DNA from: an uncultured Clostridia bacterium
GTDB lineage: Bacteria; Bacillota; Clostridia; Christensenellales; Borkfalkiaceae
Reading direction: 5' to 3'
Length of the DNA: 61,738 nucleotides
Assembly: GCA_947630705.1 (NCBI GenBank)
Contig: CANRIK010000009.1
Coordinates: 1-61,738, forward strand
Both the position numbers and the translations under genes were made by a program. This document shows positions 564-45,912 of this stretch, piece by piece. Position 1 is the stretch's first letter. Every line of letters begins with the position of its first letter. The notes beneath the pieces are model-generated. The model was not told the origin of the DNA. It saw only the letters and a list, made by a program, of their open reading frames with translations, and made no database searches.

Positions 564-1352
564 TTATCGTCCGATCTTATACTCCGTTTCCTTCAAAAAT
601 TCAACCGAACGGGCTATCTCTTCATAGTCGCCGTAGTTGTCGCCGTATACTTCGATGACCGCGTCGCCGTCGAATCCCACGCCGTGCAAGCGCTTGAAGA
701 TTTCGGCAAAGTCATAAATCCCCATGCCGGGCAGACAGATATGCCCATCTTTGTCCACGTCGGAGAGATGAACATGCGAAATGGCTCCGGCCATGTCCTC
801 TATATACATATTTATGGGATAACCCGAACGGCGAGCCTGCTTTAAATCGAGCACGGCGGCAAGCTGCGGACAGCGCTCTTTAAATTTTTTAAAGAGCCCC
901 GGGCGATTGTACGTACACCAGCTTACGTTTTCAAGGCAAACCGTGACTTGGTAGTGCGCGCAGAACTCACAGACGGCATTGAGTAAGCCCGAAACTTCGT
1001 CGATATTTTCTCCGCCGGAGCAACGGGAAATATAGCCGTGAAAAGTATATTTATCTGTGCCTAAAAGTTGCGCAGAGCGCATCAGCTGATCCAACCAATA
1101 GAAGGCGTCTCCCCTCACCCTGCGCGAAGGGCTGAACAGCTGCGGCTCGAAATTTCCGGAGAGCGCGTGCACTGCCGATATCGGGATATCCGAAAACCGC
1201 TCCCTGTGCGCTCTTGCATACTCCGGACGGTATTCGTAATACGTGCCCAAAAAAATTTCCGCGCACTCCGCGCCGCATTTTTTTATTTTGTCGATTGCGT
1301 TTTCGCACTCCTCGCGAGGAAAGAAAGACGCCGTAGAAACACCTATTTTCAT
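564..1352 (-). CDS. Sugar phosphate isomerase/epimerase (AP-endonuclease-2-like TIM barrel)
   Basis: The 262-residue protein fits the xylose-isomerase-like TIM-barrel family, soluble enzymes that isomerise or epimerise sugars at a divalent metal. The expected metal ligands are visible: Glu141 in CLENVSW, Asp169 in AVLDLK, His195 in HVHLSD and Glu234 in AVIEVYG. Length is normal for the family. The substrate cannot be read from sequence, and no catabolic partner lies next to it. It appears to be a single-gene unit with a hairpin at 474-509 behind it. No Shine-Dalgarno sequence precedes the ATG. Instead a promoter sits directly in front, so a leaderless mRNA is predicted. A hydroxypyruvate isomerase or inosose-dehydratase-like role is equally possible. 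Confidence 0.8.
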   Translation of the reverse strand: MKIGVSTASFFPREECENAIDKIKKCGAECAEIFLGTYYEYRPEYARAHRERFSDIPISAVHALSGNFEPQLFSPSRRVRGDAFYWLDQLMRSAQLLGTDKYTFHGYISRCSGGENIDEVSGLLNAVCEFCAHYQVTVCLENVSWCTYNRPGLFKKFKERCPQLAAVLDLKQARRSGYPINMYIEDMAGAISHVHLSDVDKDGHICLPGMGIYDFAEIFKRLHGVGFDGDAVIEVYGDNYGDYEEIARSVEFLKETEYKIGR

Positions 1353-1358
1353 AAGGAT

Positions 1359-1386
1359 ATTGTAACATATATCGGCAATTTGTCAA
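1359..1386 (-). promoter_or_regulatory. Sigma-A promoter, predicted leaderless
   Basis: On the minus strand TTGACA (1381-1386), a 16-bp spacer and TACAAT (1359-1364) form a strong promoter. Six bases (ATCCTT) separate the -10 box from the ATG at 1352, placing the expected +1 on the A of the start codon. No ribosome-binding site is present. Confidence 0.75.
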
Positions 1387-2220: not shown

Positions 2221-3339
2221 TTATCCGCGCAACGAAAGTTTTTTGACTGCCGCTATCAATTCGTTAACGGCAGAGGGCGGAGTGAACGCCGAAAAGGAAG
2301 CGCGCACCAACCCGTCGGAGAAGAGCGCTCTGTGCATGAGCGGCGCGCAGTGAAGTCCGCCGCGCACGCAGATGCCGAATTCTTCGGAGAGGGCGAATGC
2401 AGCCATTTCGGACTGCATGTTTTTCAGTCGGAAAGCGACTATTCCGTAAGGATTCGGTTTTGAAAATATTTCCGCGCCGCATTCCGCCAACCCCTCCACG
2501 GTTGCCGCGGTCAGACTTTCCGTAACCGTTCGGTGACGCATAATGTGACGTTCGAGATACATGGCGCCCTCCGCAAGCGAAACTATTGCCGGAAAATTCA
2601 ATGTTCCGCTCTCCAATCTGTCCGGATAAAATTCCGGCATATCGGGATTGTAGCTCTCACTGCCCGTTCCACCGAAGGTAAGCGGTTGAGGGTCGAACCT
2701 CTCGGAAAACAGCAGGGCTCCGCTCCCCTGTATGCCCAGCATGCCCTTGTGTCCGGCCACGGCAAGCGCGTCAATGCCGAGAGCTTTCATATCTATGCCG
2801 ATATGTCCGCACGCCTGCGCGCCGTCGCAGATCAGTATACAATCTCGCGGCAGAACCTTTTTTACTCTTTCGATATCCGGAGCAATGCCCGTGACGTTGG
2901 AAGCGAGGGTGATGACGGCGGCGCACGGCGGCTTCCCGACGTGCGCCGCCTCTTCAAGTTTGACTATATCCACCTCTCTGTCGCCGTTTAAAGGAATATA
3001 AATTATTTCCGCGCCGTCTTTTTTAAGCCTTTCAAGCGGACGAAGAACGGAGTTGTGTTCGGCTACGGTGGTGATTATTTTGCCGTCTTTCGGAAGCGAA
3101 AATATGGCAATGTTCAAGGCCTCTGTACAGTTCTTCGTAAAGACCACTCTCTCGTAGCCGTAACCGCCGAAAAAATCGCTCAATACCTTCCTCGCGGAAT
3201 ATACCCTCTCCGAGCATGCAAGAGAGAGCTTGTGTCCGCTTCTCCCGGGATTGGCCGCAGTAACGAGTGCCGCGCTTACGGCGGAAATTACGCAATCGGG
3301 CTTGAAGCCGCCCGTGGCGGCGTTGTCGAGATATATCAT
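2221..3339 (-). CDS. Cysteine desulfurase family protein (class V aminotransferase fold)
   Basis: The protein begins MIYLDNAATGGFKP, as PLP-dependent cysteine desulfurases of the IscS/SufS-like group do. PLP-contact residues His95 and Asp172, the Schiff-base Lys198 in AVAGHKGML, and the catalytic Cys331 in GGLHCAPLMH are present. The start at 3339 is chosen because AAAGAGG lies eight bases upstream; the ATG six codons earlier has no such site. At 372 residues it is slightly shorter than IscS and matches the subfamily often linked to selenium or DUF3343 genes. A DUF3343 gene starts 56 bp away in the divergent direction. It should release sulfur (or selenium) from cysteine as an enzyme-bound persulfide. 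The acceptor is not evident. Confidence 0.88.
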   Translation of the reverse strand: MIYLDNAATGGFKPDCVISAVSAALVTAANPGRSGHKLSLACSERVYSARKVLSDFFGGYGYERVVFTKNCTEALNIAIFSLPKDGKIITTVAEHNSVLRPLERLKKDGAEIIYIPLNGDREVDIVKLEEAAHVGKPPCAAVITLASNVTGIAPDIERVKKVLPRDCILICDGAQACGHIGIDMKALGIDALAVAGHKGMLGIQGSGALLFSERFDPQPLTFGGTGSESYNPDMPEFYPDRLESGTLNFPAIVSLAEGAMYLERHIMRHRTVTESLTAATVEGLAECGAEIFSKPNPYGIVAFRLKNMQSEMAAFALSEEFGICVRGGLHCAPLMHRALFSDGLVRASFSAFTPPSAVNELIAAVKKLSLRG

Positions 3340-3395
3340 AAAATTTTCCTCTTTCATATTATAATAATATATTTATACTATGGAAGGATTGATTT

Positions 3396-3626
3396 ATGAC
3401 AGAGCAAATTGCCGTTTTCCGTTCGCGCGCGCAGGCGATGGACTGCAATTCGAGGTTGCGCTCCATGGGCGTGCCGTCGAGTATTATAAATACGCCGCGC
3501 GAAGCTAATGTGGGTTGCGGACTATCTGTTCGAGTGCCGCAAAACATGCTTGCGAGAGCCAAAGTCATAATTGCCAACGGCAGATATTCGGCATTTTATG
3601 GTTATTTCACAGTCAAAATTTATTGA
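3396..3626 (+). CDS. DUF3343 protein, putative Se/S carrier-like
   Basis: The 76-residue protein matches the DUF3343 pattern: an N-terminal strand (QIAVFRSRAQAM), a central TPREANVGCGLSVRV stretch with the conserved Cys of the GCGL motif, and a short C-terminal region. DUF3343 resembles the C-terminal part of YedF and is thought to carry sulfur or selenium as a persulfide, though biochemical proof is limited. Divergence from a cysteine desulfurase only 56 bp away supports that role: the desulfurase could load this Cys. AAGGA precedes the ATG. The last eight residues (YGYFTVKIY) are not conserved in the versions I recall. Confidence 0.75.
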   Translation: MTEQIAVFRSRAQAMDCNSRLRSMGVPSSIINTPREANVGCGLSVRVPQNMLARAKVIIANGRYSAFYGYFTVKIY

Positions 3627-3651
3627 TTTTGCCGCGGCATTGTGATAGAAT
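3623..3651 (+). promoter_or_regulatory. Sigma-A promoter of nth, predicted leaderless
   Basis: TTGATT (3623-3628), 17 bp, TAGAAT (3646-3651), then TTGCCT and ATG at 3658. The 6-base gap places +1 on the start codon. The -35 box overlaps the stop region of the preceding DUF3343 gene. Confidence 0.7.
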
Positions 3652-3657
3652 TTGCCT

Positions 3658-4287
3658 ATGGAGCAAGAAACAACCTCAAGAATTTTGGAGACGCTCGCAG
3701 AGCTATACCCGAACGCGGCTCCGGCCCTCAAATATAACTCTCCTTACGAACTGCTCGTCGCCGTAATACTCTCGGCGCAATGCACTGACGAGAGAGTGAA
3801 TAAGGTGACCGCAGAGCTGTTCAAATATCATAATACTCCCCGAACAATGCTCGAACTGACGCAGGAAGAACTCGAAAAATACATCTTTTCGTGCGGCTTT
3901 TACCGCAACAAAGCGGCGCATATTCTTTCGGCTTCGCGCGATATTCTCGAAAAGTACGGCGGCGAAGTGCCTGACGGTCACGAACAGCTTAAAACTCTTG
4001 CCGGAGTGGGTCAAAAGACCGCCAACGTAGTATACTCTGTGGCGTTCGGCGGCGACGCAATAGCGGTTGACACTCACGTTTTCAGAGTCTCCAACAGACT
4101 CGGAATAGCAAATGGTAAGACTCCCGAAAAGGTCGAGGAGGGATTGAAAGCGGCGATTCCGCAGAATTTATGGTCGAAAGCCCACCACTACCTCATCTAT
4201 CACGGCCGTCGCGTCTGCCACTCGCAGAGACCAGACTGCGCAAACTGCACTCTCAAAGATTGGTGCGAATTCTACAACGAAAAATAA
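3658..4287 (+). CDS. nth: Endonuclease III
   Basis: This is a base-excision-repair DNA glycosylase/AP lyase that removes oxidised pyrimidines. The 209-residue protein has the helix-hairpin-helix LAGVGQKTANVV (114-125) with catalytic Lys120, the catalytic Asp138 in VDTHVFRV, and a C-terminal 4Fe-4S cluster with ligands Cys187, 194, 197 and 203 (spacing 6-2-5). Length is typical. A TTG two codons upstream could extend it, but that TTG lies in the gap between the -10 box and the ATG, so ATG 3658 is preferred. No Shine-Dalgarno sequence is seen. Two hairpins follow (4295-4354). Confidence 0.95.
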   Translation: MEQETTSRILETLAELYPNAAPALKYNSPYELLVAVILSAQCTDERVNKVTAELFKYHNTPRTMLELTQEELEKYIFSCGFYRNKAAHILSASRDILEKYGGEVPDGHEQLKTLAGVGQKTANVVYSVAFGGDAIAVDTHVFRVSNRLGIANGKTPEKVEEGLKAAIPQNLWSKAHHYLIYHGRRVCHSQRPDCANCTLKDWCEFYNEK

Positions 4288-41037: not shown

Positions 41038-41466
41038 TCACAAAAATTTTTTAAGATAACTCAAATCGAGTTTCCACTCGGCTATACGGTTCCTGCGCCG
41101 GTGCGCCTCGTTTGCCTCTTTGAGAGCTTTCCTGTAATCCGCATAGCCGCAGTCGTTGACTTTCATGAAGTGCGCGCACGCCCTCTCTTCTCCTCCCAAA
41201 AGGGAAGTTCTGCCGATATGTATCACCTCGTGGCACGCATGACAGACGGCAACGACGTCTTTTAAACGCTGTACGGCGTTCTCTTCGTCGTACTCCCACC
41301 GTTCGTGCGCTTCAAGTCTCCTGACTTTCGCTCCGCATATCATGCACGCTCCGTTTGCGCGCGCATACGCCTCCCTCCTCACCGCGTCCCACTGCGCGGC
41401 GGAAAGAATACTCCTTAAATTGGAATACCAACAGCTGTCGGGAACAAGTTCTATTTCAAGTTTCAT
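41038..41466 (-). CDS. HNH-endonuclease-like zinc protein
   Basis: The 142-residue protein has an HNH-type core: CMICG, then the signature LEAHERWEYDE with the catalytic-type His, and a second zinc pair in CHACHEVIHIGR. That gives two CxxC knuckles around a beta-beta-alpha-metal fold. The C-terminal half is basic and helical. Such stand-alone HNH proteins may be nicking nucleases or inactive DNA-binding proteins; the target is unknown and no phage genes flank it. No Shine-Dalgarno sequence precedes the ATG at 41466, and a promoter ends 6 bases before it, so a leaderless mRNA is predicted. It is divergent from the SPFH operon. Confidence 0.75.
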   Translation of the reverse strand: MKLEIELVPDSCWYSNLRSILSAAQWDAVRREAYARANGACMICGAKVRRLEAHERWEYDEENAVQRLKDVVAVCHACHEVIHIGRTSLLGGEERACAHFMKVNDCGYADYRKALKEANEAHRRRNRIAEWKLDLSYLKKFL

Positions 41467-41472
41467 GCCTGA

Positions 41473-41501
41473 ATTATACAACTTCGGACTTCGAATTTCA
41501 A
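41473..41501 (-). promoter_or_regulatory. Sigma-A promoter of the HNH gene, predicted leaderless
   Basis: TTGAAA (41496-41501), 17 bp, TATAAT (41473-41478) on the minus strand, then TCAGGC and ATG. Same 6-base geometry as the isomerase, nth and glpK promoters. Confidence 0.75.
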
Positions 41502-44398: not shown

Positions 44399-45877
44399 TT
44401 ACTTCAATCTCGCCCTTCTTACCGCGGTTTGCCAATCGCCGAGCAATTTAATGCGAGCAGTCTCCGACATTTTCGGAGTAAAAACGCGCTCTGTTCTGCG
44501 GTTTTTACGGATCTCCTCGACCGATTTCCAATAACCGCATCCGAGGCCGGCGAGATATGCGGCTCCGAGAGCCGTCGTTTCGGAGATCTCCGGACGCACT
44601 GCCTCGCAAGAGAGTATATCCGCCTGAAACTGCATAAGAAAATTATTTGCGGAGGCTCCGCCGTCCACGGCGAGTGAAGTTATCTTCATTCCGGAGTCCT
44701 TTTCCATTGCCGAAACGATATCGCAAACCTGAAAAGCTATGCTTTCGAGAGCGGCACGGACTATGTGCGCAGAAGTCGTGCCCCTCGTAATTCCCGTGAC
44801 GGTCCCTCTGGCAAAGGGGTCCCAATACGGCGCGCCCAGCCCCGTAAACGCCGGAACCACATAGACTCCGCCGCTGTCCTGAACGCTCTTTGCGCACCTT
44901 TCGCTCTCTTCGGCAGAGGATATCAGTTTCAGTCCGTCGCGCAGCCACTGAACTACGGCGCCGCCGACGAATACGGAACCTTCGAGCACATAGCACGGTT
45001 TGCCGTCTGCCGAAGCCCCGAGAGTTGTGATGAGCCCGTTGCGGCTTTTTACGGGCTTGTCCCCCGTGTTCATCAGAAGGAAACAGCCCGTGCCGTAGGT
45101 GTTCTTGATGTCTCCCTTGCGCGTGCAGAGCTGGCCGAACAGCGCCGCCTGTTGGTCGCCGGCAACGCCGCAGATTTCCGCGCCCGAGAGAACTCCCCAC
45201 TCCGCCTTTCCGAAATCATATATCGAGGGGTGCACTTCCGGAAGCATGCTTTCGGGAATGTCGAAGAGCCGCAAGAGCTCTCTGTCCCAATCGAGAGTAT
45301 GTATATTGAAGAGCATTGTACGGCTGGCGTTGGTGTAGTCGGTGGCAAAAATTTTGCCCTTCGAAAGCTGAAAGAGCAAATAGGTATCCACCGTGCCGAA
45401 ACAGAGTTCGCCGCGCTCGGCGCGCGCACGCACGCCCTCTACGTTGTCTAAAATCCACTTTATTTTCGTGGCCGAAAAGTATGCGTCGGGCACGAGCCCC
45501 GTCTTGTTGTATATCCGCTCCGAAAATCCCTCGTCCACGAGCTTGCGGCAGAAATCGGCCGTTCTGCGGCACTGCCAGACTATGGCGTTCGAGACCGGTT
45601 CGCCCGTGGCTCTGTCCCATACGAGAGTGGTTTCGCGCTGGTTGGTTATGCCTATCGCCGCTATATCCGCCGCCGAAAGTCCGGCTCGCGCAAGCGCTTC
45701 CGCCGCGACCGCCATACATGTGCCGAGGATATCTTTCGGAGAATGTTCCACCCAACCCGGGGTGGGATAGATCTGGCCGAATTCCAACTGCGCCTTTGAA
45801 ATTATCTGCCCGTCGCCGCCGAAAACTATGGCGCGCGAGCTTGTGGTTCCCTGATCCAACGCAAGAATGTATTTCAT
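44399..45877 (-). CDS. glpK: Glycerol kinase
   Basis: GlpK phosphorylates glycerol to sn-glycerol-3-phosphate with ATP, feeding lipid synthesis and glycolysis. The 492-residue FGGY kinase begins [19 protein letters not shown] and has the [17 protein letters not shown] and [20 protein letters not shown] stretches of the family. Length is normal. No glycerol facilitator or dehydrogenase lies beside it, so it stands alone. No Shine-Dalgarno sequence precedes the ATG at 45877; a promoter ends 6 bases before it, predicting a leaderless mRNA. An ATG seven codons upstream would overlap that promoter and is rejected. Confidence 0.95.
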
Positions 45878-45883
45878 AGAAAA

Positions 45884-45912
45884 ATTATAACATATCATCT
45901 GCGACGTTGCAA
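45884..45912 (-). promoter_or_regulatory. Sigma-A promoter of glpK, predicted leaderless
   Basis: TTGCAA (45907-45912), 17 bp, TATAAT (45884-45889) on the minus strand, then TTTTCT and ATG. The +1 is expected on the A of ATG. Confidence 0.75.

Follow-up and report, generated by a model that had tools for sequence, protein, structure and literature searches.

At 1350..1386 of the window, by which we mean the whole stretch of 61,738 nucleotides that was analysed, a promoter lies so close to the ATG of an isomerase-like gene that the question arises whether its message has any leader, and whether such starts are a regular feature of this organism. Clostridia are regarded as strongly Shine-Dalgarno (SD) dependent, and to our knowledge the leaderless mode is seen as rare among them. 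The original prediction described four sigma-A type promoters in the window with the -10 box ending exactly 6 nt before the ATG, and our reading of the sequence agrees at all four.

1350..1386, minus strand: TTGACA-16-TACAAT-ATCCTT-ATG promoter of the isomerase-like gene (-35 at 1386-1381, -10 at 1364-1359, ATG at 1352-1350)
3623..3660, plus strand: TTGATT-17-TAGAAT-TTGCCT-ATG promoter of nth (-35 at 3623-3628, -10 at 3646-3651, ATG at 3658-3660)
41464..41501, minus strand: TTGAAA-17-TATAAT-TCAGGC-ATG promoter of a small 'HNH' gene (-35 at 41501-41496, -10 at 41478-41473, ATG at 41466-41464)
45875..45912, minus strand: TTGCAA-17-TATAAT-TTTTCT-ATG promoter of glpK (-35 at 45912-45907, -10 at 45889-45884, ATG at 45877-45875)

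The four ATGs were also said to lack an SD sequence, and a scan for words of at least 3 bases of the anti-SD complement holding GG or GAG returned none at any of them. Three of the four promoters carry an extended -10 (TGT before TACAAT at the isomerase-like gene, TGA before TAGAAT at nth and TGT before TATAAT at glpK), the promoter of the small 'HNH' gene being the one without TGn. A possible fifth case is weak, with no good -35 and with an alternative start at 3339 that has an AGGA word.

2221..3357, minus strand: class-V aminotransferase, TATTAT 6 nt before the ATG at 3357

Genes and starts behind the four promoters

The four promoters precede the following genes.

564..1352, minus strand: xylose-isomerase-like TIM-barrel protein, 262 aa, predicted leaderless (Pfam AP_endonuc_2, E 2.6e-23)
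3658..4287, plus strand: endonuclease III-like DNA glycosylase (nth), 209 aa, predicted leaderless (Pfam HhH-GPD, E 3.3e-26)
41038..41466, minus strand: small protein, 142 aa, predicted leaderless (NCBIfam IscB, E 7.8e-4, far under the cut-off)
44399..45877, minus strand: FGGY-family carbohydrate kinase (glycerol kinase, glpK), 492 aa, predicted leaderless (Pfam FGGY_N and FGGY_C)

The HNH label first given to the small protein at 41038..41466 keeps a weak HNH-type match (IscB) in its favour and gains nothing from Pfam, where no match was found at 1e-3. For glpK, the longest mechanical open reading frame begins at 45898, with an in-frame ATG that overlaps the promoter (45875-45898). We favour the start at 45877 because it gives an N-terminus (10 residues) that we take to be conserved in glycerol kinases; automatic annotation could here pick a start 7 codons too early.

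Judged from the sequence, these four genes are very likely leaderless, the sigma-A type promoter setting +1 on the A of the AUG. In the mechanism that we propose, a housekeeping sigma-A type promoter would be placed with the end of its -10 hexamer 6 nt before the ATG, RNA polymerase would begin at the A of the ATG (7 nt beyond the -10), giving an mRNA with a 5'-terminal AUG and neither leader nor SD. Initiation on leaderless mRNAs proceeds through the terminal AUG and initiator tRNA, not through anti-SD pairing, and ribosomes would recognise the AUG in that way here. What the sequences show directly is the geometry, its enrichment at gene starts, a base preference like that of transcription start sites, the lack of SD words, conservation at nth and the distribution over genomes; where the mRNAs actually begin and how ribosomes start on them is inferred.

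Enrichment of the 6-nt spacing at gene starts

Boxes of this kind could be chance AT-rich words near starts, picked out by a pattern-seeking reader, and two counts speak for this: TANN(A/T)T is no commoner 6 nt before the window's ATGs, taken all together, than at other distances, after which we limited the count to gene-start ATGs, and for 577 such candidates each single spacing yields about 6 TATAAT-like boxes. The latter count comes from a 462-kb sample (29%, including 20 stretches of 20 kb) of the window's genome, which measures 1.589 Mb in 18 contigs and is 97% complete. Genes were called with our own simple caller, which uses periodic 5-mer statistics and is not an annotation, and the in-frame ATGs near gene starts were scanned for a strict -10, a TATAAT-like hexamer of the form TA....T with at most one mismatch. 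At spacing 6 the box was present before 24 of the 577 candidate ATGs, compared to a mean of 6.1 (sd 2.65, maximum 11) at the other spacings from 0 to 44, leaving out 5-7, and to a mean of 3.9 (maximum 10) in 300 dinucleotide shuffles. There was no spike at spacing 6 for GTG (2/215) or TTG (4/307) in the sample, and the 11,247 other ATGs gave a flat profile, with 40 at spacing 6.

Over the whole genome, the pattern TTGNNNN{14,18}TANAATN6ATG gave 34 matches and the reversed pattern none. The reversed pattern, which is not promoter-like, overstates the signal (in many genomes of other orders, too, the count is two to three times that of the reversed pattern), and we therefore took spacings of 9-12 nt as the control; the 34 matches then stand against 41 over these four spacings, a ratio of 3.3. 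The 60 genome-wide -35/-10 matches at spacings 5-7 fall into 18, 34 and 8, respectively, and at the 30 loci fetched the ATG opens at least 80 codons in 1/8, 13/19 and 3/3. Two of the loci, L009 and L029 (G000 C2:1790 and C7:62874), lie near the ends of two contigs and have the same promoter-like sequence; the assembly may have broken at a repeat there. In the window and L031-L050, all from this genome, CTAG is strongly depleted (15 vs ∼319 expected).

The bases around the boxes also behave as they would at transcription start sites. RNA polymerase tends to start on a purine that follows a pyrimidine, and the base at -1 is T or C in all 24 spacing-6 cases of the sample compared to 328 of the 553 other candidate ATGs (P = 3.6e-6); genome-wide, a pyrimidine is found there in 31/34 matches at spacing 6, 7/18 at 5 and 4/8 at 7. 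The extended -10 (TGn) accompanies 10 of the 24 spacing-6 boxes vs 35 of 256 boxes elsewhere, and a -35 with at most 2 mismatches from TTGACA is found for 16/24 vs 77/256 at other spacings. The same-genus genome G007 is a weaker replicate, with 13 boxes at spacing 6 against a mean of 4.5 and a maximum of 10 elsewhere (gene caller), and with T at -1 in 12/13 of these cases vs 252/468. In the G007 sample (L162-L181), CATG occurs 0 times vs ∼550 expected in 400 kb, GGCC (105 of 1426) and CCGG (478 of 1913) are depleted and C precedes no candidate ATG; the tetranucleotide depletion is perhaps an avoidance tied to restriction-modification. The spike is absent from G094, of another family (f4) of the same order (1 at spacing 6 vs 1.7), and from G334, of the same class (3 vs 5.5).

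A chance origin is refuted for the set as a whole by the spacing spike, the shuffles and the pyrimidine at -1, and we find it hardly credible: the spike occurs at a single spacing and only before in-frame gene-start ATGs, start-like bases and better -35 boxes accompany it, and it is missing from the two control genomes and from the pooled other orders. About 4 to 6 of the 24 spacing-6 cases are nevertheless expected by chance, so single genes are uncertain.

In the sample, no spacing-6 start has an SD word of more than 3 bases, and a word of 3 bases is found at 3 of the 24. The genome-wide check put forward in the original prediction, that SD-less starts with the 6-base spacing be enriched, is thus passed both in the 29% sample and in the whole-genome pattern counts. 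An SD word of at least 4 bases at a usable spacing is found for 246 of 344 sampled genes at one or more candidate starts, a figure inflated by using the best of several starts per gene. On the same measure, the share is 71-72% in the window's own and the same-genus genome vs 89% and 85% in the two control genomes. The single 16S rRNA gene found has a 3' end with an intact anti-SD; together with the 71% of sampled genes that have an SD word, this differs from the SD rarity of the Bacteroidetes type.

The lack of SD words also bears on another reading, in which most of the transcript is made from a promoter farther upstream and the short-spaced one plays a secondary part. This is the arrangement described in Clostridium phytofermentans, where, according to the available text, the potentially leaderless transcription start sites (4%) generally come with another, upstream start site and a typical ribosome-binding site (PMC5171806). 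In the 24 sampled genes a longer leader would add no ribosome-binding site, since none has an SD word of more than 3 bases, and at nth the geometry is often kept; we consider such a main upstream message very unlikely.

Of 346 genes, 23 have a strict box at spacing 6, where the other spacings would predict 5.6; the excess is 17.4 (5.0%), and among the 207 genes that are apparently first in their transcription unit the excess was 16.8 (8.1%). In G007, the excess amounts to 2.9% of genes and 5.5% of unit-first genes. Looser -10 motifs gave 3.5-4.0% of genes and did not raise the estimated share. Leaderless translation had at first been called routine in this organism; a regular minority mode stands, and 'routine' overstates an excess of ∼5% of the sampled genes. 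It seems that the leaderless mode serves about this share of genes beside SD-led initiation and that it recurs in part of one order of Clostridia.

Another 19 spacing-6 proteins were scanned for families, 14 of them taken from the 19 starts that the sample holds beyond the window and 5 from genome-wide loci. Their best families include a PcrA-type helicase, an RdgB-type pyrophosphatase, RsmG, RuvX, an MntR-like regulator, a RecD-like helicase, alanine racemase, a D-Ala-D-Ala carboxypeptidase, an RlmI-type methyltransferase, serine-tRNA ligase, TrmB, IspE and a CDF transporter. There was no match for three of the 19 proteins scanned, and several matches were under the NCBIfam cut-offs.

Among family genomes, nth is present in 60 of the 61 searched, and 17 of the 30 best loci (our own included) have the exact spacing-6 geometry, the six bases between box and ATG varying. 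By eye, 8 of the 30 have a TATAAT-like box at other distances, namely 7 (one), 8 (one) and 9 nt (six), and 7 of these 8 belong to genera g3 and g5; two of the last 5 of the 30 loci have a 5-base SD word at the candidate start. In most nth loci of g3 and g5 (L139-L141, L143, L147, L150 and L152), the -10 lies at 8-9 nt, with 9 in six of the seven, so a leader of 2-3 nt is predicted. For glpK, one relative among 80 loci (L052, 71% identity) has the spacing-6 geometry and L054-L057 have SD words instead; our own rule did not find the glpK start codon in the nearest relative, L051, or in several others of the 80 loci. The SD words of near relatives at glpK and the more distant -10 at nth in g3 and g5 count against the leaderless reading.

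In a near-leaderless reading, transcription starts 1-5 nt from the A and leaves a very short 5' tail. The spacings of 7-9 in 8 of the 30 nth loci agree with it, as do the long frames opened at all three spacing-7 loci fetched and the 7 boxes that G007 has at spacing 7. In the window's own genome, on the other hand, the excess lies at 6, with 4 boxes each at spacings 5 and 7 among the 577 candidate ATGs, and the pyrimidine at -1 fits a +1 on the A itself. We regard a short 5' tail as improbable and a start on the A as the preferred reading.

Distribution over the order and ribosomal protein S1

We surveyed 385 genomes, 151 of the order and 234 of the class outside it (class sample 245), and for the ratio we divided the count at spacing 6 by the average count at one control spacing (9-12), both taken from the same genomes. 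Outside the order the pooled ratio is 1.03 (median 1.02), with a ratio of at least 2 in 4/234 genomes. Within it, the ratio is at least 2 in 70 of the 151 genomes, 1.3-2 in 27 and below 1.3 in 54, and these last count against the leaderless reading, the signal being variable. Pooled by family, the ratio is highest in f32 (3.9), f16 (3.5), the window's own family f1 (3.5), f3 (3.1), f24 and f6 (both 2.9), f8 and f30 (both 2.8) and f28 (2.4), followed by f10, f18, f14, f19, f29 and f11 (2.1-1.8), and lowest (0.7-0.9) in f4, f13, f23, f26 and f33; the excess at spacing 6 has a P value below 1e-4 in 15 of the 33 families of the order. Related families thus range from no excess to nearly fourfold and differ in ribosomal protein S1 too, so a gain of leaderless initiation is open to direct comparison.

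S1 was searched with TIGR00717 over the order; the 12 of 151 genomes without a match of at least 126 bits were dropped from the correlation, in which some low scores that are partial matches (e.g., G127 and G188) were kept. The S1 score and the leaderless ratio are negatively correlated (Spearman -0.82 for the 33 families and -0.71 for 139 genomes). The ratio reaches 2 in 3 of the 57 genomes whose S1 scores at least 260 bits (pooled ratio 1.10), compared to 62 of the 82 genomes below 260 bits (pooled ratio 2.64). The low-scoring state is probably derived, because 94 of 113 genomes of the class sample outside the order score 261-406 bits, the other 19 being weaker, split or trace.

In the 20 genomes fetched for S1, hand-picked for long contigs, S1 forms the C-terminal part of an IspH-S1 fusion open reading frame, which provides a rate control within one frame. 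In f28, whose genomes measure 0.8-1.2 Mb, the S1 match lies in a frame of ∼340-358 aa in 6/7, too short for the fusion. Between 10 sequences of leaderless families and 9 others (f11 being in neither group), identity within the groups is 0.37 and 0.41 for IspH and 0.48 and 0.56 for S1, compared to 0.35 and 0.37, respectively, between them, and the between-group identity of S1 is lowest in the first two of four blocks of alignment columns (0.30 and 0.32). The ratio of S1 to IspH score averages 0.98 in the leaderless families vs 1.36, with one overlap (f16, 1.25); IspH scores are also lower there, at 0.80 of the other group's, and those of S1 at 0.57.

In trees of 10 leaderless-family and 10 other rows, with f11 placed among the latter, the branch that splits the two groups measures 0.82 for S1 (median tip 0.32), 0.24 for IspH (0.96), 0.23 for IF3 (0.46) and 0.225 for L20 (0.25), that is, 2.6 median tips for S1 vs 0.25-0.9 for the other three. 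The ten leaderless-family rows fall on one side in all four trees, which have no outgroup and, for IspH, come with long-branch warnings (support 100/100, 93/93, 96/97 and 98/95 for S1, IspH, IF3 and L20). Of the 15 families whose excess is significant, this side includes 6; f11, which also belongs to the 15, lies on the opposite side, so that the trees do not show a single origin. IF3 was considered as a cause and is unsupported, being found in 139/151 genomes and having a short split branch.

Families with a leaderless excess mostly carry the shifted S1, a correlation that has exceptions. S1 is normal in f11, which has a ratio of 1.81 and 3 of 8 genomes above 2; f9 and f20 (one genome each) have a weak S1 and a ratio of 1.2; and f71, outside the order, has trace S1 matches in the 3 genomes searched, its nine genomes pooling to 1.22 (0.86-2.12). 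A weak or missing S1 is therefore neither needed nor sufficient. A link of S1 to leaderless initiation is still plausible because, in the available text of a review (PMC9031893), bS1 and uS2 are reported as dispensable for leaderless and needed for canonical initiation. The same text states that bS1 is absent from the ribosomes of low-GC Gram-positives such as Bacillus, which puts the role of the IspH-S1 fusion itself in question.

It is rather probable that the S1 shift has nothing to do with leaderless initiation and is a by-product of fast evolution in the branch that gained leaderless genes: both traits sit on one branch of the tree and so count once, the L20 split branch is fairly long too (0.9 of a median tip), the IspH scores fall along with those of S1 and there are the four exceptional families. 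This account has to accommodate the fact that, on that branch and relative to the tips, the change in S1 was ∼3 to 10 times that in L20, in IF3 and in the IspH of its own reading frame, as well as the reported dispensability of bS1 for leaderless but not canonical initiation (PMC9031893). That remodelling of S1 and regular leaderless initiation arose on the same branch inside the order and are causally linked is a tentative idea that we think unlikely, and we lowered our estimate slightly since the trees cover 6 of the 15 excess families and have f11 on the other side. In such a scheme S1, most altered in its N-terminal half, would favour leadered mRNAs less and so allow starts on a 5'-terminal AUG. 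If true, the mode of initiation would have switched naturally here, and a protein would be the candidate cause. Of these findings, the S1 association most deserves a test.

Comparison with known leaderless systems

The view that leaderless starts are not typical of Clostridia holds: the 234 genomes of other orders have no pooled excess, and mapped clostridia, in the reports as available, have few leaderless transcripts or keep the ribosome-binding site. By those partial texts, the start site map of Clostridium ljungdahlii detected no leaderless transcripts (PMC6203783), ∼2% of start sites lie at <10 nt in C. autoethanogenum (PMC6873888) and 2-3% at <6 nt in three solventogenic clostridia (PMC9045289), and C. 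difficile has 15 potentially leaderless genes (PMC7438776). The few cases there are defined by cut-offs such as <6 or <10 nt, whereas here they are predicted from sequence, by an exact spacing and the lack of an SD word. The portions of PMC10783764 and PMC5397173 that we could consult name no such leaderless lineage. A literature search for leaderless together with Christensenell returned one paper on a leaderless bacteriocin and another in which both words occur solely in the reference list, the GeneMarkS-2 survey lying outside its scope. Further literature searches turned up no title about this lineage. A regular leaderless minority in part of a clostridial order affects how gene starts are annotated and how promoters are read.

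Zheng et al. (2011; PMC3160421), in the text available, report leaderless genes in 56/209 Firmicutes genomes (mean 4.2%, range 2.4-16.6%), concentrated in Lactobacillales and Mycoplasma; 'clostridi-' is not mentioned in the main text as far as it was available. The genes described here resemble their TA-led genes in having TANNNT ∼12 bp (from the first T) before the start codon and no SD, as well as TG before the -10, as in several low-GC genomes there, and our share of 5% lies within their Firmicutes range. Unlike the Lactobacillales and Mycoplasma cases of that study, the leaderless genes are here found in part of a clostridial order. The promoter geometry is the same as in leaderless genes of Actinobacteria and Deinococcus-Thermus, but the mean leaderless share in those groups is 19% and 39%, respectively, by the same partial text (PMC3160421) vs ∼5% here, and GTG starts are without excess here. 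With an excess of 5.0% of sampled genes, the genome stays below the ∼20-40% of leaderless-rich genomes. The kind of system is therefore a known one, and its occurrence in this lineage is, as far as we have searched, new.
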